From the NCBI GenBank assembly GCA_019637395.1, contig JAHBVR010000004.1, positions 248,001-312,000 of the forward strand: a DNA stretch of 64,000 bases, written 5' to 3'. Positions 29,627-38,959 of this stretch are shown here, one piece after another. The stretch comes from Vulcanimicrobiota bacterium. Lineage in GTDB: Bacteria > Vulcanimicrobiota > Xenobia > Xenobiales > JADMJV01. The notes beneath the pieces are model-generated. The model searched no databases. It was given only the letters and a program-made list of their open reading frames with translations, and was not told the origin of the DNA. The translations under genes were made by a program, and so were the position numbers. Position 1 is the first letter of the stretch, and each line of letters begins with the position of its first letter.

Positions 29627-30821
29627 GTAGTGAGCCCAGCACGCGGCGGCGGGCCGTGCGCAGTTGGCGCAAACGATAATTGGCGTGACTGGATTCCCCC
29701 TCCAGGGTGCGCAGATGGTTCTCGTGGTCCAGGATCTGGACTTCGTAGGGGAAGAAGAAGCGCAGCACGGGCTCAGGATTGTCCGCGCTCAGTTTGGAAA
29801 GCAGGGCGGCTAGTTCCTCGTTGGGAATGCGCTCGCTGAGGGCGGCGCGCAGCTCTTGCAAGGCGGAGTATTGCGGATTGGGCACGCGGATCAACTGGCG
29901 GCAGGTGAACTGGATGGAGCGAAAAGTCGAGGACGAGTGGGGGTTCTGGGGTGGATTTTCCTCGCCGCTCGGTTCCGTGGGCCGTTGCAAGGCCGCCCAA
30001 TTGCTCTTGAAGCTGCCGGGCGCGCCCGGGCGCGAAATGGACTCATAAACGTCGCGGAAGCGCTCCAGGTCGATCAGTGTGTTACGGGAGCGTCCGGGCA
30101 TGATGTTGGCAAAAATAGCCAGGTGGTTGCGCCGTATGTATTTCAATACGAGCAGCGCGTCCACTTTGGTGGGGGTGACCAGCTTGACGCCAATGCGGTC
30201 GTAGACGCCCTGGGCCACGTTGTCGGGCTTGTGCAAGAGTTTCAGGATCAGGCTGTCGCGGCTCTTTTCTTCCCGTAACTGGATGTCTTCCAGGGGCACC
30301 GCCAGCAGTCCGGTGCCCAGGTGGAGTTTGCCCTGAGCGTCCTGATGAACGTGCTGGCGATAGCGTTCTAAGATTTGGCTTTGGATCTCCTGGTAAAAGG
30401 GAGAGCGGACGGCGTGGTTGGCGTGGCTGATGGTATGCATGACGCGCAGCAGGGCGCAGGCCCAGGGTTGGAGCGGACCTCCGTGGGAAGCCAGTAGGAG
30501 GATTTCGGTCAGGTCGGTAATCTGTTGCAAATCCTCGGGTAGTCCCACGGCCTGATCTTCTGGGGTAGGGGCGGGACAGAGGACGCGCTCGAGGTATTCG
30601 ATGCCTTCGCGAAATACAGTCCAGGCTTCGTGATGTTCGCTGGGGATGGCCATGTCATAGCCGTAATGAACCAAGAACTGGTATGCTTCGTCACGACTCT
30701 GCAGAGCCAGCCGATTCAGGTCGATGGGAGAGACGCCGTCCAGAAAAGAACGTAAGGTTTCCCAGGAAAAATCGTAGCGGTTGCGTCCCCAACTCAAGCT
30801 CATATAGGGCCTATCTTGCAT
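29616..30821 (-). CDS. Unknown protein with a possible RelA/SpoT-like nucleotidyltransferase segment
   Basis: 401 residues from ATG 30821 behind a G-rich site. The central part contains LREEKSRDSLILKLLHKPDN followed by VYDRIGVKLVTPTKVDALLVLKYI. This resembles the Arg/Lys-Ser...Lys and DIxGxRI strands of the RelA/SpoT synthetase fold, but the match is by eye only. The rest is helical and charged, with a Pro/Ser linker near 285-300. No signal peptide or membrane helix. It is divergent from the strong promoter of the Ro/ubiquitin-like cluster. I do not assign alarmone synthesis without a profile search. Confidence 0.72.
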   Translation of the reverse strand: MQDRPYMSLSWGRNRYDFSWETLRSFLDGVSPIDLNRLALQSRDEAYQFLVHYGYDMAIPSEHHEAWTVFREGIEYLERVLCPAPTPEDQAVGLPEDLQQITDLTEILLLASHGGPLQPWACALLRVMHTISHANHAVRSPFYQEIQSQILERYRQHVHQDAQGKLHLGTGLLAVPLEDIQLREEKSRDSLILKLLHKPDNVAQGVYDRIGVKLVTPTKVDALLVLKYIRRNHLAIFANIMPGRSRNTLIDLERFRDVYESISRPGAPGSFKSNWAALQRPTEPSGEENPPQNPHSSSTFRSIQFTCRQLIRVPNPQYSALQELRAALSERIPNEELAALLSKLSADNPEPVLRFFFPYEVQILDHENHLRTLEGESSHANYRLRQLRTARRRVLGSLLTE

Positions 30822-30862
30822 ACCCACCCCGGGACCCCTTCGAAAAAATTTGCAGTTGTCTG

Positions 30863-30891
30863 TTGACAGAATTACGGAGTCTCCCTATACT
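30863..30891 (+). promoter_or_regulatory. Strong sigma70-type promoter upstream of the Ro/Ub-like cluster
   Basis: TTGACA (30863-30868) and TATACT (30886-30891) are separated by exactly 17 bp. Transcription should start near 30898 and read a 32-residue ORF and then a terminator at 31044-31078. Confidence 0.8.
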
Positions 30892-30924
30892 CGAAAAATC
30901 CCACGACGAAAGGAAGAATATCTA

Positions 30925-31023
30925 ATGCTCGGATTTAGTAATTATCGTCCAACGCATTCGATTGTCGATTGCCCCACCCTATGGGCAATGGGCCAATCCC
31001 TTCGTCGCAGCGGCATAAGTTAG
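30925..31023 (+). CDS. 32-residue leader-type ORF
   Basis: ATG 30925 is preceded by AAAGGAAG about 7 nt upstream and lies 27 nt after the predicted transcription start. It encodes MLGFSNYRPTHSIVDCPTLW plus twelve more residues and ends in TAG at 31021. It is followed within 21 nt by a strong intrinsic terminator. This is the layout of a leader peptide and attenuator, or of a short monocistronic peptide mRNA. There is no obvious run of one regulatory codon, so what would be sensed is unclear. Confidence 0.5.
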   Translation: MLGFSNYRPTHSIVDCPTLWAMGQSLRRSGIS

Positions 31024-31043
31024 CGTTCTACAGCGCTCGCCGA

Positions 31044-31078
31044 AACCCGCTGCTCAGCCAACGACCAGCGGGTTTTTT
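31044..31078 (+). terminator. Intrinsic terminator / possible attenuator before the Ub-like gene
   Basis: AACCCGCTG (31044-31052) pairs perfectly with CAGCGGGTT (31066-31074), with a 13-nt loop and a T6 run to 31078. It lies between the 30863 promoter and the 31139 gene, so it either ends a small RNA of about 180 nt or controls read-through into the cluster. Confidence 0.88.
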
Positions 31079-31138
31079 AATGGGCTCCCTCGGATCCCAC
31101 GGAGTCTCCCGCCGGCTACAGAAAGGAGACCCTCGACT

Positions 31139-31339
31139 GTGTTCCACATTCGTTACGCAGGACGTACCTTCGAAATCAAGCCTAAAGTATTTGAATTGTC
31201 CCTGAAAGCCACCGACCGCGAGATTATGTCTCGGGTCGCTGACTGGCTGGGCATCCCGGAAACCGGCTTGAAGAATTACGTCATCGACCGTCGGCCCAGC
31301 GGCCAGGTGGTCGTTCGCCCTGAAGCCATTTTTGGCTAA
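31139..31339 (+). CDS. Ubiquitin-like beta-grasp protein (putative)
   Basis: 66 residues from a GTG start with an AAAGGAG site closely matching the one before the TROVE gene. The pattern is beta-grasp-like: a beta hairpin (MFHIRYAGRTFEIKP), one helix (TDREIMSRVADWLGIP), then strands ending VVVRPEAIFG. The GIP after the helix sits where ubiquitin has GIP too. The C-terminal residue is Gly, as needed for adenylation by an E1 enzyme, although only one Gly is present rather than two. The size is like ubiquitin and like the small Ub-like proteins of PRTRC and related bacterial cassettes. With an E1-like and a JAMM gene downstream in the same direction, it is the best candidate modifier. Fold assignment is inference. 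Confidence 0.62.
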   Translation: MFHIRYAGRTFEIKPKVFELSLKATDREIMSRVADWLGIPETGLKNYVIDRRPSGQVVVRPEAIFG

Positions 31340-31408
31340 CGGATTCGTAGCATAATTGTCGGGATGGGTCCTCATTTTATGGGGAAATGGGGATCCATTT
31401 CGGCTCAG

Positions 31409-31547
31409 GATCGAAGGGCGCGCCCTGACTGGAAAAGCTTACATACTGCTACTGGTTAGCACCTTTCCTTGGTAAGAAAGACCCCGTAGGTTCGACTCCT
31501 ACTGTGTAACAACAGCTTTTTCGACTTGCGCGAAATTCGATCTTTTT
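31409..31547 (+). ncRNA. Y-RNA-like RNA with a complete tRNA-like module
   Basis: The outer stem is GATCGAA (31409-31415) with TTCGATC (31536-31542), then CGCGC (31419-31423) with GCGCG (31528-31532), then AAAAGC (31433-31438) with GCTTTT (31515-31520). A T5 run follows at 31543. Inside is a tRNA-like cloverleaf. It has a 7-bp acceptor TTACATA/TGTGTAA (31439-31445/31503-31509), a D arm GCTA/TAGC (31448-31451/31457-31460), an anticodon arm CTTTC/GAAAG around TTGGTAA, and a 5-bp T arm GTAGG/CCTAC with loop TTCGACT (31491-31497). The acceptor continues into the long stem and no CCA end exists, so it is not a tRNA. Bacterial Y RNAs near Ro genes are known to carry tRNA-like modules. Confidence 0.8.
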
Positions 31548-31573
31548 CTCCGGCAATCATTCCATTTTGGCTC

Positions 31574-31662
31574 GGTCGGCGTCCCGACCTGGAAAGCTTA
31601 CATACACCCGACTGTAAATCGGGCTTATCGTTTCCAAACGAAGCTCACCCAATGTGCTTTCC
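31574..31662 (+). ncRNA. Second, shorter tRNA-like / Y-RNA-like RNA
   Basis: A hairpin GGTCGG/CCGACC (31574-31579/31584-31589) is followed by a 7-bp outer stem GGAAAGC/GCTTTCC (31591-31597/31656-31662) and ACAT/ATGT (31600-31603/31652-31655). It encloses a perfect anticodon-arm-like hairpin CCCGA-CTGTAAA-TCGGG (31607-31623), identical in form to a tRNA-Tyr arm. A further hairpin CGTT-TCCA-AACG lies at 31629-31640. The D arm and a proper T arm are missing. It shares GCTTACATAC and the preceding GGAAA with the 31409 RNA, so the two are probably paralogous. No terminator follows; it may be processed from the TROVE mRNA leader. Confidence 0.6.
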
Positions 31663-31713
31663 TGACTTACGCTTGGCCTTGCCATTTCTTCGCCCTCTGG
31701 AAAGGAGACTCTC

Positions 31714-33171
31714 ATGTTCGAACGCGATATTCGCCTGGGCCTGATGGATTCGTTGCTGTCGCCGGCCAAGGCGGAATTGTCGGATCTTGTAAAGATCCAC
31801 GCCGATGCTCTCGAGCTCGACGTACATTTTTACGGCCACCTCGCCGCCTGGTTTCATAAGCACGGACGTGTCCGAAGCTTTCGTGAGGTCTTCTGTGCCG
31901 GTCTGTTCGCCAGCCCGCTGCCCGAGCATCGCGAAGCGGGCTGGGTGATCCTCCAGTCTTTGGCCCCTCACCAGGTGGCCAACGTGGTGCGGGCGGCCAA
32001 GCAGCACTTCCACAAGGCTCCGCGCACTTTGCGCAGCGCCGTGGTCGACTTCTTGCGCCAGCGCGAAGCCAACTCGTTTGTCTTCGACCGTGCCGCCGCT
32101 CGTCAAGGTAAGGCTTTGAAAGAGCTCTACGCGGCTCTGCACATCGCCCCCGGCGAGCGCGCGCAGTCGGTGCTTTTTGCTCGCAAACCGCCCGAAGGCT
32201 CGCTGGCGGCCAGGGTCAAGGCCCTGGCCAACAGCACCTCTCCGGCCGAGCAGGCGCTGATGATTCTCGATCTCAAGTTGCCTTTCCCGGTGGCCGTGGG
32301 CGCCGTGCGTCAAATGACGCCGGCCGTGCTGGCCGCTCTGGTGGAGGTGATGACTCCGGCCGAAATCATGAACCACCTCAAGATGCTGGAAGCTCGCGGT
32401 GCTCTCGAACACAAGGAGTTGCGCCAGCGCATTGAGGAGAAGCTGAAAGAAGCCGGAACGGATGCGCGAGTGTCCGATTTGAAGGGCTTGAAGGCCGCCC
32501 GAGCGGTGAAGGATGACAATATTCGTCACCAGGTCGAGGCGGTGGTTCAGCAGCGGGCTTCGGCCCAGGGTCGCATCGTGCGCAGCACGGCCATCCTGGT
32601 GGATAAGTCCAGCTCTTTGACGGTGGCCATCGACGCGGCCATCCAGTTGGGTGCGCTGGTGGGTGGCCTGATGAAGGCCGACCTGCACGTGCTCGTCTTC
32701 GATACCGTGTCGCGCCCCGTCAAGGTGCCCGCCGGTTCGGCTTCCATCGCCGATTGGGAACGCGCTTTCCAGGGAGTGGTGGCCAACGGCGCTACCTCGG
32801 TCGGTTCTCCCGTAGCCTGGCTGCGGGCCAACCGGGTGGAGGTGGAGCAGTTGGTGGTCATCACCGACGAGGAAGAGAACACCGCTCCTTACTTCCACAG
32901 CCAGCTCGAGCTTTACCAGCGCGAGCTGGGCCTAATGCCCGGCGTAGTTTTGCTCAAGGTGGGCCACGCCTCCAATCACTTGGAGCGCCAGCTTCTCCAG
33001 CGGCAGATTGCGTTTGATACTTACCAGTTCACCGGCGACATTTTCTCTCTCGCCAACCTGATTCCGATGTTGACCCGACCGGGCCGTCTGGAACTGTTGA
33101 TGGAGATCCTGTCCACACCGTTGCCGGTGCGCCAGACCAGCCCTGCCGTCAAGAGCAATAGGGCCAGCTGA
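31714..33171 (+). CDS. TROVE-vWA protein, bacterial Ro60 (Rsr) homologue
   Basis: 485 residues, ATG 31714 with an AAAGGAG site. Residues about 1-285 are alpha-helical repeats of a TROVE domain, the ring that binds misfolded RNA and Y RNA in Ro60. Residues about 290-470 are a von Willebrand A domain with an intact MIDAS: DKSSS (Asp297, Ser299, Ser301), Thr361 in GATSVG and Asp385 in ITDEE. Bacterial Ro proteins act in RNA quality control, often with PNPase or the RtcB/RtcA repair genes; neither is here. The two tRNA-like RNAs directly upstream are the expected Y-RNA partners. It is followed by an unknown gene and E1- and JAMM-type genes in the same direction. Confidence 0.9.
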   Translation: MFERDIRLGLMDSLLSPAKAELSDLVKIHADALELDVHFYGHLAAWFHKHGRVRSFREVFCAGLFASPLPEHREAGWVILQSLAPHQVANVVRAAKQHFHKAPRTLRSAVVDFLRQREANSFVFDRAAARQGKALKELYAALHIAPGERAQSVLFARKPPEGSLAARVKALANSTSPAEQALMILDLKLPFPVAVGAVRQMTPAVLAALVEVMTPAEIMNHLKMLEARGALEHKELRQRIEEKLKEAGTDARVSDLKGLKAARAVKDDNIRHQVEAVVQQRASAQGRIVRSTAILVDKSSSLTVAIDAAIQLGALVGGLMKADLHVLVFDTVSRPVKVPAGSASIADWERAFQGVVANGATSVGSPVAWLRANRVEVEQLVVITDEEENTAPYFHSQLELYQRELGLMPGVVLLKVGHASNHLERQLLQRQIAFDTYQFTGDIFSLANLIPMLTRPGRLELLMEILSTPLPVRQTSPAVKSNRAS

Positions 33172-33233: not shown

Positions 33234-34004
33234 ATGACTCTACGCGCGCTCGTACAGAGACTCGCTCAGCAGGAACTAGATTGGCAGGGACGTCACCTGC
33301 TCGCCCCGGTGGTTGCCCCGGGGCGAGCGCGGGTGCGTCTCCAGGGTCTGGTTTATGAGTTTCGCACCTCGCCCGCGGATTTCTGCGGCTTTGGTGTGTT
33401 CGCACTGAATGCCTCGGGGCTGGCCGATTACGTCCGCTCGGCCAGCCCCCCCGAAAGGGAGAAATACCTCAAGCTATGGCCGCGCCGGCAGGTGCGGTTG
33501 CTGCGGGAGGTTGCTCCCGGTAGCTGGCTGACGCCCGGCGGACTGGTCCACGAAGTCGAACGCGGCTCGCTCTTTGAGCTGGTCGAGGTGGCTTTTGATG
33601 GCCGCAACCTGTGGTATTGCCGGCCGGTGTTAAATACCCGGCTGGCCCTGGCGGAAGAAATGGCTCGTGCGCTGCGCGATGGTGTATCCGAACACGAATT
33701 GCATCTCAAGGGTCTGACGCCAATGGATCGCGCCGCCTTCGCTTTACTGGTGAAGCCGGTGGTGGGGGATGACCACGAGCGTCTGGCTCGCGCGTTGCGG
33801 CGTGGTGGCGGAAGCTTACGCAGCTTTTCGGTGGACGGGGATTCTTTCCAGGTCCACTGGGAAGATAGCCGCGGATTGTCCCGTTTTTCAAGTATCCGAC
33901 GAAATGATCTGACGGTTTTGAGTTCGGGCATCTGTTTGTCCGGACGAGATTCCGATTTTGACCTCACGTCTCTAGTGGGCGTGCTGGAGGAGGAAGAAGA
34001 CTGA
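33234..34004 (+). CDS. Unknown protein of the Ro/Ub-like cluster
   Basis: 256 residues, ATG 33234 with a good GGAGTAGG site. No membrane segment or signal peptide. The N-terminal half is beta-rich (VRLQGLVYEFRTSPADF, then a single Cys in FCGFGVF); the C-terminal half has a helical part and an acidic tail (LEEEED). It lies between the TROVE gene and the E1-like gene, with 1 nt to the latter, so it belongs to the same operon. An adaptor, E2-like or target-binding role would be the obvious guess, but no E2 catalytic signature is visible and I leave it unassigned. Confidence 0.78.
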   Translation: MTLRALVQRLAQQELDWQGRHLLAPVVAPGRARVRLQGLVYEFRTSPADFCGFGVFALNASGLADYVRSASPPEREKYLKLWPRRQVRLLREVAPGSWLTPGGLVHEVERGSLFELVEVAFDGRNLWYCRPVLNTRLALAEEMARALRDGVSEHELHLKGLTPMDRAAFALLVKPVVGDDHERLARALRRGGGSLRSFSVDGDSFQVHWEDSRGLSRFSSIRRNDLTVLSSGICLSGRDSDFDLTSLVGVLEEEED

Positions 34005-34005
34005 T

Positions 34006-34644
34006 ATGAGCTTCACCCTACACGAGACCCGCTACCGCGGGCGGGAACTATTGCAGAAGCTGGCCGGAGCCCGTATTACCGTGTGCGGCGCCGGTTCGCT
34101 GGGAGCCAACCTGGTGGAACAACTGGCTCGTTGCGGAGCCACCGGTTTGACCGTCATCGATCGCGATCGTTTGGAAGAGCAGAATCTGGCCACCCAGCCT
34201 TACGGCCGCAGCGAGTTGGGTGGTTATAAGGCTATCCTGTTGTCAGCCCAGGTTTACCGGGCACTGGGACTGCAGGTCACGGCCGTGGCCAAGGAGCTGA
34301 CTGGCGATACGGCCGCGCGCTTGCTGCGCGGTTCACAACTGGTGGTTGACTGTCTGGACAATCGGGCCGGTCGCCTGTGCGTTCAGGAAGCCTGCCGCCA
34401 ATATCAGATCCCCTTGCTGCACGGTGGGTTGAATGGAGATTACGCCGAAGTGGTCTGGGACGCGGCCTACACTGTTCCCAGCGGCGCCGGCGAGGATGTC
34501 TGTGACTACCCGCTGGCCCGCAACCTGGTGACGCTGACCGTGTCGACTTTGGCCGAATCGATTTTGACATGGTTAGACAACCAGGAGCAACAGAGCTGGT
34601 CACTGACCCTGCGCGACTTCGCCATCCGGCCCTGGTTGGCGTAA
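34006..34644 (+). CDS. E1-like / ThiF-family adenylyltransferase
   Basis: 212 residues. It has the Rossmann ATP-binding loop CGAGSLG (27-33), acidic IDRDRLEEQN (51-60) and a QPYGRSELGGYKA segment matching the E1/ThiF region that binds the modifier tail. A Cys in EDVCDYPLA near residue 168 could be the thioester cysteine. The family adenylates the C-terminal Gly of ubiquitin-like or sulfur-carrier proteins. It is compact, without extra domains. No ThiS, MoaD or thiamin/molybdenum gene is near; the 66-residue beta-grasp candidate upstream and the JAMM gene directly after point to a conjugation cassette instead. Confidence 0.88.
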   Translation: MSFTLHETRYRGRELLQKLAGARITVCGAGSLGANLVEQLARCGATGLTVIDRDRLEEQNLATQPYGRSELGGYKAILLSAQVYRALGLQVTAVAKELTGDTAARLLRGSQLVVDCLDNRAGRLCVQEACRQYQIPLLHGGLNGDYAEVVWDAAYTVPSGAGEDVCDYPLARNLVTLTVSTLAESILTWLDNQEQQSWSLTLRDFAIRPWLA

Positions 34645-34976
34645 TGGAACACGCCCGGCGGTGTTTTCCTGAGGAGTGCGTGGGCTTATTGATCGGCGAG
34701 GGGGATGAGGTTTTCAACTTCATCCCCCTTTCCAATGTACATCCGGCGCCACGACAGGGGTTTGCTTTAGCGGAGGCGGAGGTGGCTCTACATTTGGGTA
34801 AGGGCGTGGTAGGACTGTACCATAGCCATCCAGGAGGGGGGGGAGGGGAGCCGTCGGTCCTGGATGATCTCGCCGGCTTTTGTTTCTATTGGATAGTAGA
34901 CCCGCTCAACGGTAAGATCTACGAAACCCGCCGTAGGATGAATAAATGCGGCCGCGGTGAAAGCTGCCCAGAGTGA
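34644..34976 (+). CDS. JAB/MPN (JAMM) metalloprotease-like protein
   Basis: 110 residues from ATG 34644, whose A is the last base of the E1-like gene's TAA stop. The JAMM zinc motif is complete: catalytic Glu10 or Glu11 in PEECVGLLIG, then YHSHPG with His60 and His62, exactly seven residues to Ser71, and Asp74. This is the classical HxHPx7SxxD spacing. Prokaryotic JAB proteins cleave ubiquitin-like proteins from targets or trim their tails. The fold is slightly short at the C-terminus. Its last 71 nt overlap the convergent gene ending at 34906. It completes the Ub-like, E1, JAMM set. Confidence 0.87.
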   Translation: MEHARRCFPEECVGLLIGEGDEVFNFIPLSNVHPAPRQGFALAEAEVALHLGKGVVGLYHSHPGGGGGEPSVLDDLAGFCFYWIVDPLNGKIYETRRRMNKCGRGESCPE

Positions 34977-35642: not shown

Positions 35643-35905
35643 CAGGCGAGGCAAAGCCTCGGCTCCAGGCGGGCCCCCCTGCCGCGCCGAGGCGAGGCAA
35701 AGCCTCTCCTCCAGGCGAGCCCCGCTGCCCGCGCCCAGGCGAGGCAAAGCCTCGGCTCCAGGCGGGCCCCCCTGCCGCGCTCAGGCAAGGCAAAGCCTCC
35801 CCTCCAGGCGAGCCCCGCTGCCCGTGTCCAGGCGAGGCAAAGCCTCGGCTCCAGGCGGGCCCCGCGCCTGCCCGCGCCCGGGCGAGGCAAAGCCTCTCCT
35901 CCAGG
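35643..35905. repeat. Six-copy tandem repeat of about 45-50 bp with internal palindrome
   Basis: Six units begin at about 35645, 35691, 35738, 35783, 35831 and 35881. Each contains GAGGCAAAGCCTC (one copy A-AGGC), a 5-bp palindrome with a 3-nt loop, then CTCCAGGCG and a C-rich stretch. Units differ by 1-4 nt in length and by scattered substitutions. It fills the 433-nt gap between the divergent exported-protein and rhodanese genes. Open frames through it are compositional artefacts. Confidence 0.85.
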
Positions 35906-35980
35906 CGGGCCTCGGGCCTGGCCTCGAATCAAGCTGGTGTTCGCGAGGTTTGCGGCGGGTGGGCAGGGAAGGCGCGGACT

Positions 35981-36304
35981 ATGGACGAGATAACCCCTTT
36001 AGAATTCAAAAAACAATGGGATGAGGGCCGCCGGCCGGTGCTCATCGACGTGCGTGGCGCCGACGAATGGGAGATCTGCAATCTCGAGGAGTTCGGCGCC
36101 CGGCTGATTCCCCTCCAGGAGTTGCCACAGCGCTACACGGAAATCCCCAAAGACGGCGACATCGTCATGCAGTGCCGCTCCGGGGGACGTAGCGCCCAGG
36201 CTCAGCGCTTTCTCCAGGCCCAAGGTTACGCAAAAGTGCAGAATCTGACCGGCGGCATGCTGCGCTGGTCGGACGAAGTCGATAGCAGCAAGCCCAGATA
36301 CTAG
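35981..36304 (+). CDS. Rhodanese-like sulfurtransferase domain protein
   Basis: 107 residues from ATG 35981; a longer open frame to the left runs through the tandem repeat and is not credible. A single rhodanese domain: LIDVRGADEWEICNLEEF, then the active-site loop CRSGGRSAQA with the catalytic Cys and the GGMLRW end. These proteins transfer sulfane sulfur or act as Cys-based sensors. The stop TAG shares its G with the GTG start of the NurA gene, so they are coupled. Confidence 0.9.
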   Translation: MDEITPLEFKKQWDEGRRPVLIDVRGADEWEICNLEEFGARLIPLQELPQRYTEIPKDGDIVMQCRSGGRSAQAQRFLQAQGYAKVQNLTGGMLRWSDEVDSSKPRY

Positions 36305-37176
36305 TGATCAGCGTCAGCGAGTGGGTGCCCTCCTATGGGGACCCACACCAGCTGGAGGATGAGCAAGAGTATGCCCGTGTTTGGGAGCACGCCGAGCTGC
36401 AGGCGGTCGATACGCCTCTTACGCCGCGCCCGCGGGTCGCCTTCGTGGATGGGGTGCGGCGAGCGGAGGCGCTTCTGTATTTGGACGAGATTACGGCCGT
36501 AGCCGGAGTGCTGGCGGCGGGGGCGGCCGTTCCGGGTGGCGGCTACGCGGGGGTGCGGGTGGAGCGCGTCTTCCTGCGGGCTGCCGAGGTTCGATTGCCT
36601 CCTCAAGCCGGCGGCTGGAGTTGGCGTTCGCTGCTGATCCCCGCCGACCTGAACGCCGAATTGGCCCTGCAACGAGCCATGCGCGAACTGGAAGCGGAAA
36701 TCGGCCTGGCTCTGGCCCGGGAAGGTTACGCCCTGGTGCTGGACGGCCCCATGGCAACCGCCCTGCCACGGGCCGTCGGTTACGTAAAGACTCAGCAGCG
36801 CTCGTTGCTTCCACCGGAACAGAACGAGGCTTTGGGTAAATTACGGGCGGGCCAGCGCAGCAGCATGTTCGCCTGGGGCAGCAAGCACGGCTGCTATATG
36901 CGCCTGAGTCATGACCGCGAGCACCAGCATCCATACCACGGCCTGGTTCGACTGGAATGCATGGGGGAGGCGGAAAGTTGCCGCGCCTGGCTCCACGAAG
37001 TGGCCGGCTGGCTACCCGCCTTCGCCGGGGTGGCTCACCTCGATCCGCGTGCTCCCCAGAATCTGCAGCCCATCGCGGGCCTTGAAAAAGAACTGCGCCG
37101 CCGCTGCGGCGATCCCGGTCTGGCCCTGCGCGCCGTGCGCCAGGCCGTGGCTCAGCTACAGAAAGGTCTCAGTTGA
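36304..37176 (+). CDS. NurA-domain nuclease
   Basis: 290 residues from a GTG start. NurA signatures appear in order: VAFVDGVRRAEALLYL (metal-binding Asp), ALVLDGPMATALP, GYVKTQQRSLL and a C-terminal HPYHGLVRLE segment. NurA is a Mn-dependent 5'-3' nuclease that works with the HerA hexameric translocase to resect DNA ends. A HerA-type gene begins 2 nt after this stop, confirming the pair. Pairing is usual in archaea and scattered in bacteria, where such pairs occur in repair and in phage defence. Confidence 0.87.
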   Translation: MISVSEWVPSYGDPHQLEDEQEYARVWEHAELQAVDTPLTPRPRVAFVDGVRRAEALLYLDEITAVAGVLAAGAAVPGGGYAGVRVERVFLRAAEVRLPPQAGGWSWRSLLIPADLNAELALQRAMRELEAEIGLALAREGYALVLDGPMATALPRAVGYVKTQQRSLLPPEQNEALGKLRAGQRSSMFAWGSKHGCYMRLSHDREHQHPYHGLVRLECMGEAESCRAWLHEVAGWLPAFAGVAHLDPRAPQNLQPIAGLEKELRRRCGDPGLALRAVRQAVAQLQKGLS

Positions 37177-37177
37177 A

Positions 37178-38959
37178 ATGGAACGAGTCGGTTTGATCGA
37201 CGGCCTGGAGCCGGGAACCACCAGCAGTTTCCGCGTAGTCCTGCAGGAAGACAGCCTGGTGCAGCTTGACGATCTGCTGGTCACCCAGCAGAAGCTGCCC
37301 GACGGCAGCCTGCACCGCACTTACGGACTGGTGGCCGAAGTCTACTCGCGACTGGAGGGCGCTTCTTTCCTGAGCGATACAGCGCGTATCGCCCAGGACC
37401 ACACCATGCCCGGCCAGGGAATGCGCTACGCCGACGTGCGCGTGCTGCGCCACGTGCCCGAGCTCTATATCCCGCCTCAGTCCGGCGCCGAGGTTTTCAA
37501 GGCTGCCGGCGAACTCAGGCGCGAAGCCCTTTATGAGGATCAGATGGGCAAAGGAGTGGCGGTCGCGCTCGATCAGTCCGGCATGCCGGTCATGGTGGAT
37601 CTGGAGTTCCTGGATGGCACGCGCGGCGGCCACGTTTCCATCTCGGGCGTTTCCGGCGTGGCCACCAAGACGTCCTTCGCCCTGCATCTGCTCTACACTC
37701 TGATGGAGAGTCCCCAGGGACGCCAGGCGCTGGGTGTGCACGCGGCTTCCACCCGGGCCCTGGTATTCAACGTCAAGGGTGAAGACTTGCTCCACTTTGA
37801 CCAGCGGTCGCGGCGCTACTCCGAGCGGTTGGCGGCCAACCCGGACCTGGCCGAGCAATGGCGCCAGCTCGGCATCGAAGAACCGGGACCCTTTCGCAGC
37901 GTGGCTTTTTACGCGCCCCTCTCCCGTCAGGCCGGCACCACCGCCATGACCGATGTCAGCTCGCGGGCCGGCGGCAACCTGCGGGTTTACGGCTGGCCGC
38001 CTCTCGACTTCGTCAAACAAGGGTTGCTGCGTTTCTGTTTCGCCGACGCGGACGACGGCCGCAACCAGCTCTCTTTCGTGGAGCAGCGGGTGCGCGTGCA
38101 ACTGGCCCGGTGGACCCACCCCAGCCTGGAACACCCTGGCGCCATCGTGATGATTCCGCCTGAGCACGGCTGCTCGTTTAATTTGGAGAAGCTGGTTGCC
38201 CAAAAGCGTCCGCCGCGTCAGGCCGGCGAGGGGGAATTGTGCCGCACCCTGGCCGACATTCTCGATTTCTTGGAGAATCAGTTCGAGGTCAATTTGCAGG
38301 AATGGGCCGGTAATACCCAGGCCAATACGGTCAATGCCTTTCTCCGACGGTTGCAGGCCATGGCGCCCCGTTTCGGCCATCTGATTAGCGATAAGGTCAC
38401 CTCGCTGCAGCTCGAAGGCCCGCTGGCTCCGCAGGAAAACGTGGTCGTGGTGGATATCCACAACCTGCACGACGACGGCCAGCGTTTTGTGGTGGGCACG
38501 CTGCTTTCGTCGGTCTTCGCCGCCAAGGAACGCGGGCAGCGCTTTCCGCTCCATTTCGTGGTGCTGGATGAACTCAATAAATACGCTCCCCGACAGGGTA
38601 GCTCACCATTGAAAGAAGTCTTGGTAGATATCGCTGCTCGCGGTCGCTCTTTAGGAGTTCTCCTGATTGGGGCCCAGCAGTCCGCTTCGGACGTGGAGCC
38701 GACGGTGGTGCGCAACGCCGCCATTCGGGTGGTGGGGAGACTCGACTCCGGCGAATCGACCGCCGATTTTTATCGCTTCCTGACCCCCGCGCTCAGGGAG
38801 CGCGCCATCCGACTTCTGCCGGGGACGATGATTTTGGATCAGCCGCTGGTGCCCTCGCCGCTGCCCATTCGCTTCCCCTTCCCCAACTACGCCACCAGGC
38901 ACGATGAACTACCCGATATGAGTGAGGAAGAAAGCCAGGACCTGTTTACGTTTCGTTGA
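37178..38959 (+). CDS. HerA-type DNA translocase/helicase
   Basis: 593 residues from ATG 37178. Residues 5-110 form an N-terminal HAS-barrel (GLIDGLEPGTTSSFRVVLQ). The RecA-like core has a variant Walker A, SGVSGVATKTS (157-166 region), Walker B VVLDELNKYAPR and the sensor-like GAQQSASDVEP with RVVGRLDSGES. The order and length match bacterial HerA/DUF87 proteins that form hexamers with NurA. The Walker A inserts Val-Ala before Thr-Lys-Thr, slightly unlike GxxGxGKT, but the Lys-Thr is intact. Confidence 0.9.
   Translation: MERVGLIDGLEPGTTSSFRVVLQEDSLVQLDDLLVTQQKLPDGSLHRTYGLVAEVYSRLEGASFLSDTARIAQDHTMPGQGMRYADVRVLRHVPELYIPPQSGAEVFKAAGELRREALYEDQMGKGVAVALDQSGMPVMVDLEFLDGTRGGHVSISGVSGVATKTSFALHLLYTLMESPQGRQALGVHAASTRALVFNVKGEDLLHFDQRSRRYSERLAANPDLAEQWRQLGIEEPGPFRSVAFYAPLSRQAGTTAMTDVSSRAGGNLRVYGWPPLDFVKQGLLRFCFADADDGRNQLSFVEQRVRVQLARWTHPSLEHPGAIVMIPPEHGCSFNLEKLVAQKRPPRQAGEGELCRTLADILDFLENQFEVNLQEWAGNTQANTVNAFLRRLQAMAPRFGHLISDKVTSLQLEGPLAPQENVVVVDIHNLHDDGQRFVVGTLLSSVFAAKERGQRFPLHFVVLDELNKYAPRQGSSPLKEVLVDIAARGRSLGVLLIGAQQSASDVEPTVVRNAAIRVVGRLDSGESTADFYRFLTPALRERAIRLLPGTMILDQPLVPSPLPIRFPFPNYATRHDELPDMSEEESQDLFTFR

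Follow-up and report, generated by a model that had tools for sequence, protein, structure and literature searches.

The closest described systems are the bacterial Y RNAs of the YrlA type. In the Rfam YrlA consensus (RF02553) the T arm is followed by a closed acceptor hairpin and then by the D arm, and the match between YrlA and tRNA is described as circularly permuted (PMC11472068). Rsr is held by the basal stem of YrlA and PNPase is bound by its tRNA-like domain (PMC8394870), and YrlA has been suggested as a possible competitive inhibitor of an anticodon nuclease (PMC7790460). Here, an RNA element at 31409-31547, designated Y1, was analyzed in a 64,000-nt stretch of DNA (the window) from a Vulcanimicrobiota bacterium (GTDB lineage Bacteria; Vulcanimicrobiota; Xenobia; Xenobiales; JADMJV01), taken from assembly GCA_019637395.1, contig JAHBVR010000004.1, positions 248,001-312,000 of the forward strand. 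All coordinates are window positions, and the window's genome is G000 among the phylum genomes compared. Judged from sequence, Y1 probably serves the neighbouring Ro60/Rsr-type ring protein as a Y RNA, and its Ro-side stem is joined to a tRNA body of canonical order at the acceptor end.

The predicted fold of 31409-31547 had a free energy of -43.9 kcal/mol, and none of 200 dinucleotide shuffles was as stable (mean -31.2, standard deviation 3.4; z-score -3.71); in a wider frame (31400-31549) one of 200 shuffles was (z-score -2.43). An earlier note on this DNA had described a cloverleaf with all tRNA arms inside a long three-part stem, and the fold bears this out, including a 7-bp acceptor (31439-31445 with 31503-31509, one G-U pair), whose 5' strand doubles as the conserved motif YUACAYAC, and a T arm with the loop TTCGACT. 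Two of its details were revised: the D arm, given as 4 bp, folds as 5 bp, and the anticodon loop, read as the 7-nt TTGGTAA, has 8 nt (CTTGGTAA). Against the Rfam tRNA model (RF00005) the entire cloverleaf aligned in ordinary order over 31439-31510, scoring 20.5 bits (cut-off 29; E value 0.18 in 921 bases). ARAGORN called no tRNA genes over the window, and no Rfam family matched the window at curated cut-offs. The arms of Y1 run acceptor, D, anticodon, T, acceptor, not in the permuted order of YrlA, and the covariance search with RF02553 (cut-off 69 bits), which had been proposed as a check, gave no match in 30820-31740 even at E values up to 10. Y1 is a Y RNA-like element, not the YrlA-type mimic it had been taken for.

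The Y1 body was compared with all 47 distinct tRNAs of the genome and came closest to tRNA-Pro(cgg), with a local alignment score of 54 and a shuffle maximum of 30. The Thr(GGT) label given to it earlier is incidental; the six canonical elements described below have six different anticodon loops. Y1 was rejected as a functional tRNA on the basis of its sub-cut-off Rfam score, the lack of an ARAGORN gene, and the presence of a separate tRNA-Thr(ggt) in the genome. The run of five T (T5) said to stand in place of a CCA end is present, and there is no CCA. T5 does not recur downstream of the G003, G004, and G005 homologs, and was therefore rejected as a conserved terminator.

The placement of Y1 directly upstream of a Ro gene held up, as the product of 31714-33171 is, by profile and modelled fold, a diverged Ro60/Rsr homolog with a TROVE and vWA fold. 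No Pfam family exceeded its cut-off on this protein (vWA_Ro60 17.6 bits, cut-off 27.7), and Pfam TROVE had no matches in G000. A 22-sequence profile (A3) reached human RO60 with an E value of 1.4e-6 and two TROVE-domain chains with 5.8e-6. The AlphaFold2 model (predicted local distance difference test, pLDDT, 86; predicted template modelling score, pTM, 0.75) found Ro proteins as its best Foldseek matches, with an E value of 1.4e-11 to D. radiodurans Rsr (2nvo), and VIA-align matched it to Ro60 at Z 22.6 across 436 residues (root-mean-square deviation 4.1), the best-placed non-Ro chain reaching Z 13.8. The vWA domain contains DxSxS (DKSSS in the window protein, DKSGS in many relatives), which we take to be the metal ion-dependent adhesion site (MIDAS) motif. 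Relatives of this protein were present in 17 of 149 phylum genomes; Pfam TROVE matches were likewise present in 17 of 149, G000 not included. The nearest named records were an Eremiobacterota metagenome-assembled genome (93 %) and the isolate SZAS-1 (85 %). A second Ro paralog in the window's genome (locus L043, G000:C14:52155-53543) has its own small ubiquitin-like open reading frame (ORF), and no Y RNA was seen beside it.

Relatives of Y1 were gathered from the sequence upstream of Ro relatives and by two pattern searches in eight genomes, for which 11 and 10 matches were listed, compared with 3 and 5 for reversed control patterns. The resulting 34 elements from 17 genomes, each matching its sequence record exactly, share P2, a 5' internal loop that is mostly CCYGAC against a 3' ACUU, a P3 of exactly nine positions ahead of that ACUU, and, in most cases, YUACAYAC following P3. 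Compensatory change in relatives, another check named in the earlier note, was observed: the helices are kept, and P3 covaries across the 34 elements. P3 pairing was found in 260 of 306 cells (mean 197, maximum 221 in 2000 shuffles of the 3' strands), in 192 of 238 after removal of two anchor pairs (mean 132), and in 99 of 119 with one element for each of the 17 genomes (mean 72), the last two values being reached by 0 of 5000 shuffles each, in tests that leave relatedness among the elements in place. Elements occur two or three in tandem per locus, and orphan copies lie away from Ro (G000:C9, G006:C691, G005:C181, and G017:C234), that of G006:C691 with TATAAT upstream and a hairpin and T-rich stretch downstream. 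At another G017 locus (L032, 1931-2006, contig C125), the row of tandem Y RNAs upstream of Ro includes a tRNA-Leu(cag) gene that both ARAGORN and Rfam call, and tRNA bodies may have been captured from such a gene.

On the shared stem, canonical-order tRNA bodies were carried by 6 elements (Y1, G002, G003, G004, G005, and G006:C691), permuted bodies in full or partial order by 11, and other loops by 17. With ARAGORN run at every cut point, 3/6 canonical elements were found only with cuts near the ends and 3/11 permuted elements only with cuts in the middle, compared with 0/17 of the others. In native order the Rfam tRNA model scored G005 at 42.7, G004 at 41.3, and G006:C691 at 35.2 bits; the canonical elements of G002 and G003 did not reach an E value of 1. 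The T and anticodon arms were fully paired (5/5) in all six canonical elements, as was the D arm in four (4/5 in two). The D and T arms vary in sequence on both strands, and the anticodon stem varies only in G006. The acceptor was fully paired (7/7) in the window, G002, and G003, and its 5' strand, YUACAYAC, is present in permuted elements too. Two of the six anticodon loops have 8 nt. Since the arms pair while acceptor pairing and anticodon loops vary, the elbow and the Ro-side stem are what is kept, and the acceptor and anticodon are not. Acceptor hairpins of the permuted elements were fully paired in 11/11, with many different sequences and with strands picked by eye. Both topologies are found in the window's genome, where two tandem permuted RNAs at G000:C9 (YrlA model 46.4 and 37.6 bits, cut-off 69) carry the same stem and have no adjoining Ro, and in G005 both occur within one gene group. 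A permuted Y RNA in a Planctomycetota genome (L206, 3035-3115) has a CCA-like stretch in its acceptor loop, as if two tandem tRNA genes had given rise to it.

The six canonical elements were used to build a covariance model (R1), with which 149 phylum genomes were searched. Only scores higher than about 47 bits were counted, a level that ordinary tRNAs attain with R1 (judged from one that was read). R1 recovered its own six members at 87-133 bits. It also brought up a canonical element not seen before, G017:C234 (71.7 bits), which obeys the nine-position rule, has P3 paired at 7/9 positions and P2 fully paired, and reaches 44.3 bits with the tRNA model, over the Rfam cut-off. Among 392 Planctomycetota genomes, 7 have a Ro relative, and one R1 match passed 1e-6 (G149:C699, 64.5 bits), canonical by eye, with a tRNA score of 25.9 bits, under the cut-off, and no ARAGORN call. 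Furthermore, of 50,697 phage records only LR756511.1 (595 kb) has this Ro, at 37 % identity; about 1.1 kb upstream of it an R1 match of 74.2 bits encloses an ARAGORN tRNA-Thr(tgt) of 69.3 bits.

The Ro profile found 26 loci in IMG/VR, over which R1 gave 48 rows at E values up to 0.1, duplicates included. Because tRNAs alone raise R1, the flanks were scored directly by an explicit stem test. In 22 Ro-bearing viral loci (L334 and 21 others, after exclusion of the duplicates L345, L348, and L357 and the fragments L359 and L360), 19 of 46 ARAGORN tRNAs, in 14 loci, scored above the best of 33 host-tRNA controls (0/33), with the threshold set at the control maximum and the score devised after a stricter test. 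That stricter first test gave 12/54 viral tRNAs (duplicates included) versus 0/33 controls. The controls were 33 of the 47 distinct host tRNAs, records with short flanks being dropped. At least three tRNAs (L340 aat, L346 tca, and L351 ttt) are embedded by eye yet fell under the threshold, and were counted as non-embedded. Odd anticodons were not significantly more frequent among stem-embedded viral tRNAs (6/19 versus 4/27 others, p 0.28), and were rejected as a mark of them. ARAGORN tRNAs within Ro-type stems of viral contigs include L349 3007-3081 (anticodon tta) and, by eye only, L346 3215-3291 (tca). A model of the permuted elements (R2) finds permuted viral cases, e.g. L350:2909-3058 (67.2 bits), which lies beside a canonical one in the locus. 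A degenerate-pattern scan of the viral contigs gave at least 120 mostly unspecific stretches and was not used.

These results are consistent with a two-part RNA. The P2/CCYGAC-ACUU loop/P3 stem would dock on Ro as Y RNAs do, with the CCTGAC/ACTT internal loop as a putative Ro-binding site, and the tRNA-like body would serve as an effector module. In the canonical topology the acceptor end would face Ro and the anticodon arm would point away, the reverse of YrlA. By analogy with YrlA, the tRNA elbow may recruit a tRNA-binding partner, either PNPase or a tRNA enzyme, and presenting the elbow to such a partner is the most likely function, since both topologies have the D and T arms whereas neither acceptor pairing nor anticodon identity is kept. 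With the Ro stem joined at the acceptor end, the anticodon arm is free, and the canonical form with its anticodon arm would suit the anticodon-nuclease inhibitor idea better than YrlA does. A broader proposal, put forward tentatively and with doubt, is a class of Ro-held tRNAs: whole or near-whole ordinary-order tRNAs with varied anticodons, set in Ro-binding stems of large phages and some bacteria and displaying the anticodon side (permuted YrlA displays the acceptor side), which might serve to decoy nucleases that cut tRNAs at the anticodon, or might form a store of tRNA. Some software-called phage tRNA genes, stop-reading ones included, would then really be Y RNAs.

Several points weigh against identifying Y1 as a Y RNA with a canonical-order tRNA body. 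As a tRNA mimic the window copy is weak: it scores 20.5 bits, its anticodon loop has 8 nt, a CCA is missing, and ARAGORN calls it in no rotation. Acceptor pairing, assigned by hand, is only 5/7 in G004, 0/7 in G005, and 3/7 in G006, and the 34 elements were chosen by motif and eye. Furthermore, binding to Ro, expression, and the partner of Y1 are predictions from the DNA. The low tRNA score of Y1, together with the tendency of a model built from few sequences to score real tRNAs up to about 47 bits, could point to a decayed permuted YrlA or to a cloverleaf arisen by chance within a Y RNA hairpin. This is very improbable, however, given that G004, G005, G006:C691, and G017:C234 all pass the Rfam tRNA cut-off in native order, that the rotation test separates canonical from permuted elements, that the window body aligns to tRNA-Pro(cgg) well above the shuffle maximum, and that more canonical-order elements turned up in G149:C699, LR756511.1, and the Ro-bearing viral loci.

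A cis-acting leader of the Ro mRNA would also fit the layout of the locus. Y1 is flanked by the small ORF 31139-31339 and by Ro, all on one strand; the promoter-like site at 30863 is far upstream, and no promoter was called immediately ahead of Y1. The tRNA-like structure would then have an autoregulatory or processing role within the operon and would not be a free partner RNA. The same stem is nevertheless found away from any Ro gene (G000:C9, G006:C691, G005:C181) and in two or three tandem elements per locus, making a leader unlikely. Marginally less likely again is a caged or precursor tRNA, flanked by the Ro stem and later excised for translation; the high-scoring tRNA-Thr(tgt) inside the stem of LR756511.1 agrees with such a precursor, as does a terminal CCA in 12/19 stem-embedded viral tRNAs compared with 8/27 others (Fisher p 0.036, post hoc). 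This has to be set against the 8-nt anticodon loop, missing CCA, and sub-threshold score of the window copy, against the tRNA-Thr(ggt) that the genome already has, and against the odd anticodons of embedded viral tRNAs, though their excess is not significant. A Y RNA with a canonical-order tRNA body is thus the favoured reading of Y1, and the features of the locus are collected in Table 1.

Table 1. Predicted features of the Y1 locus and its gene group, in window positions.
Feature	Position	Strand	Basis or remark
Promoter-like TTGACA-17-TATACT	30863..30891	+	11/12 consensus match only; upstream of gene group
Predicted ubiquitin-like protein, 66 residues, invariant C-terminal RPxA..G	31139..31339	+	weak fold match to ubiquitin
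Y1, Y RNA-like: Ro-side stem and canonical-order tRNA-like cloverleaf	31409..31542 (T5 to 31547)	+	fold z-score, relatives, covariation
P1 outer stem	5' strand 31409..31415, 3' strand 31536-31542	+	predicted fold
P2 stem	5' strand 31419..31423, 3' strand 31528-31532	+	fold and relatives
Internal loop CCTGAC	5' side 31424..31429; 3' side ACTT 31524-31527	+	conserved in relatives
P3 stem	5' strand 31430..31438, 3' strand 31515-31523	+	fold, covariation
Conserved motif YUACAYAC	31439..31446	+	fold, Rfam tRNA alignment, relatives
D-like arm, 5 bp, loop CTGGT	31447..31461	+	
Anticodon-like arm, 8-nt loop CTTGGTAA	31463..31480	+	
T-like arm, loop TTCGACT	31486..31502	+	
T5 run	31543-31547	+	3' of P1
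Y2, second Y RNA-like element, stem as in Y1; its loop domain falls short of a full tRNA	31569..31683	+	
Ro60/Rsr homolog (TROVE-like helical ring and vWA domain)	31714..33171	+	profile, AlphaFold2, Foldseek, VIA-align
Conserved gene, family unassigned	33234..34004	+	close to Ro in most relatives whose available sequence is long enough
ThiF/E1-like adenylyltransferase	34006..34644	+	same strand
Prok-JAB peptidase	34569..34976	+	same strand

The gene group is preceded at 30863-31078 by the promoter-like site, a short conserved ORF at 30925-31023 whose homolog is present in G003, and a hairpin resembling a terminator (31044-31078), a region that looks like a leader or attenuator. A very stable hairpin at 31360-31402 lies between the small ORF and Y1 (z-score -5.1 for 31360-31420); a similar one is present in G002, and none was seen by eye in G003. 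For the 66-residue protein, the best row of the fold search was another fold (E value 0.24), followed by ubiquitin at E value 0.26 with a template modelling score of about 0.5. The small ORF, Ro, the 33234-34004 gene, and ThiF form a recurrent set in relatives and in Planctomycetota. A rhodanese at 35900-36304 is in line with Ro, the predicted ubiquitin-like protein ending in G, ThiF/E1, and JAB, and the same-strand gene run ends with a HerA/FtsK-like ATPase (weak match) at 37121-38959. The Ro/ubiquitin-like/ThiF/JAB/rhodanese neighbourhood suggests a Ro-linked conjugation or sulfur-transfer system.

These observations bear on the purpose of the tRNA mimic in bacterial Y RNAs. One Ro stem that carries the tRNA body in opposite orders, sometimes within one genome or operon, allows the common parts (elbow and stem) to be separated from the free end that differs. 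Furthermore, some of the tRNA genes called in phages, one of them with a stop-reading anticodon, may encode Ro-linked RNAs and not translating tRNAs. No canonical-order tRNA in a Y RNA was found in the available portions of the literature searched (e.g. PMC11472068, PMC8394870, PMC7790460, PMC4726728, PMC7824862, PMC7765460, PMC11208441, PMC7159879, and PMC1779556), a coverage outside which central Y RNA papers lie, and such a body in a bacterial Y RNA is provisionally regarded as new.

In common with bacterial Y RNAs, Y1 lies beside a Ro60/Rsr homolog and has a long end-pairing stem kept in relatives and a tRNA-like domain, weak here. Its protein neighbour has the same fold as Ro60/Rsr (human RO60; D. 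radiodurans Rsr, 2nvo), from which it differs in being diverged (about 15 % identity), in lacking a Pfam TROVE match, and in standing beside ThiF, JAB, and a predicted ubiquitin-like protein. Y1 resembles tRNA in its cloverleaf arms, T loop, and a body alignable to tRNA-Pro(cgg), and departs from it in scoring below the RF00005 cut-off, in having no free ends and no CCA, and in its 8-nt anticodon loop. The permuted Y RNAs found in these genomes (G000:C9a/b, G001:C62, G003:C87, G004:C119, and others) share the P2/loop/P3 stem and YUACAYAC with Y1, whereas their tRNA body is permuted and the acceptor is closed by a short hairpin. With YrlA (RF02553; Salmonella YrlA, PDB 6CU1), Y1 has in common a Ro-linked RNA, a long end stem, a tRNA-like body, and a conserved 3' ACUUG visible in both consensuses; YrlA is permuted and its model is without an anticodon arm, whereas Y1 keeps the canonical order together with an anticodon arm.
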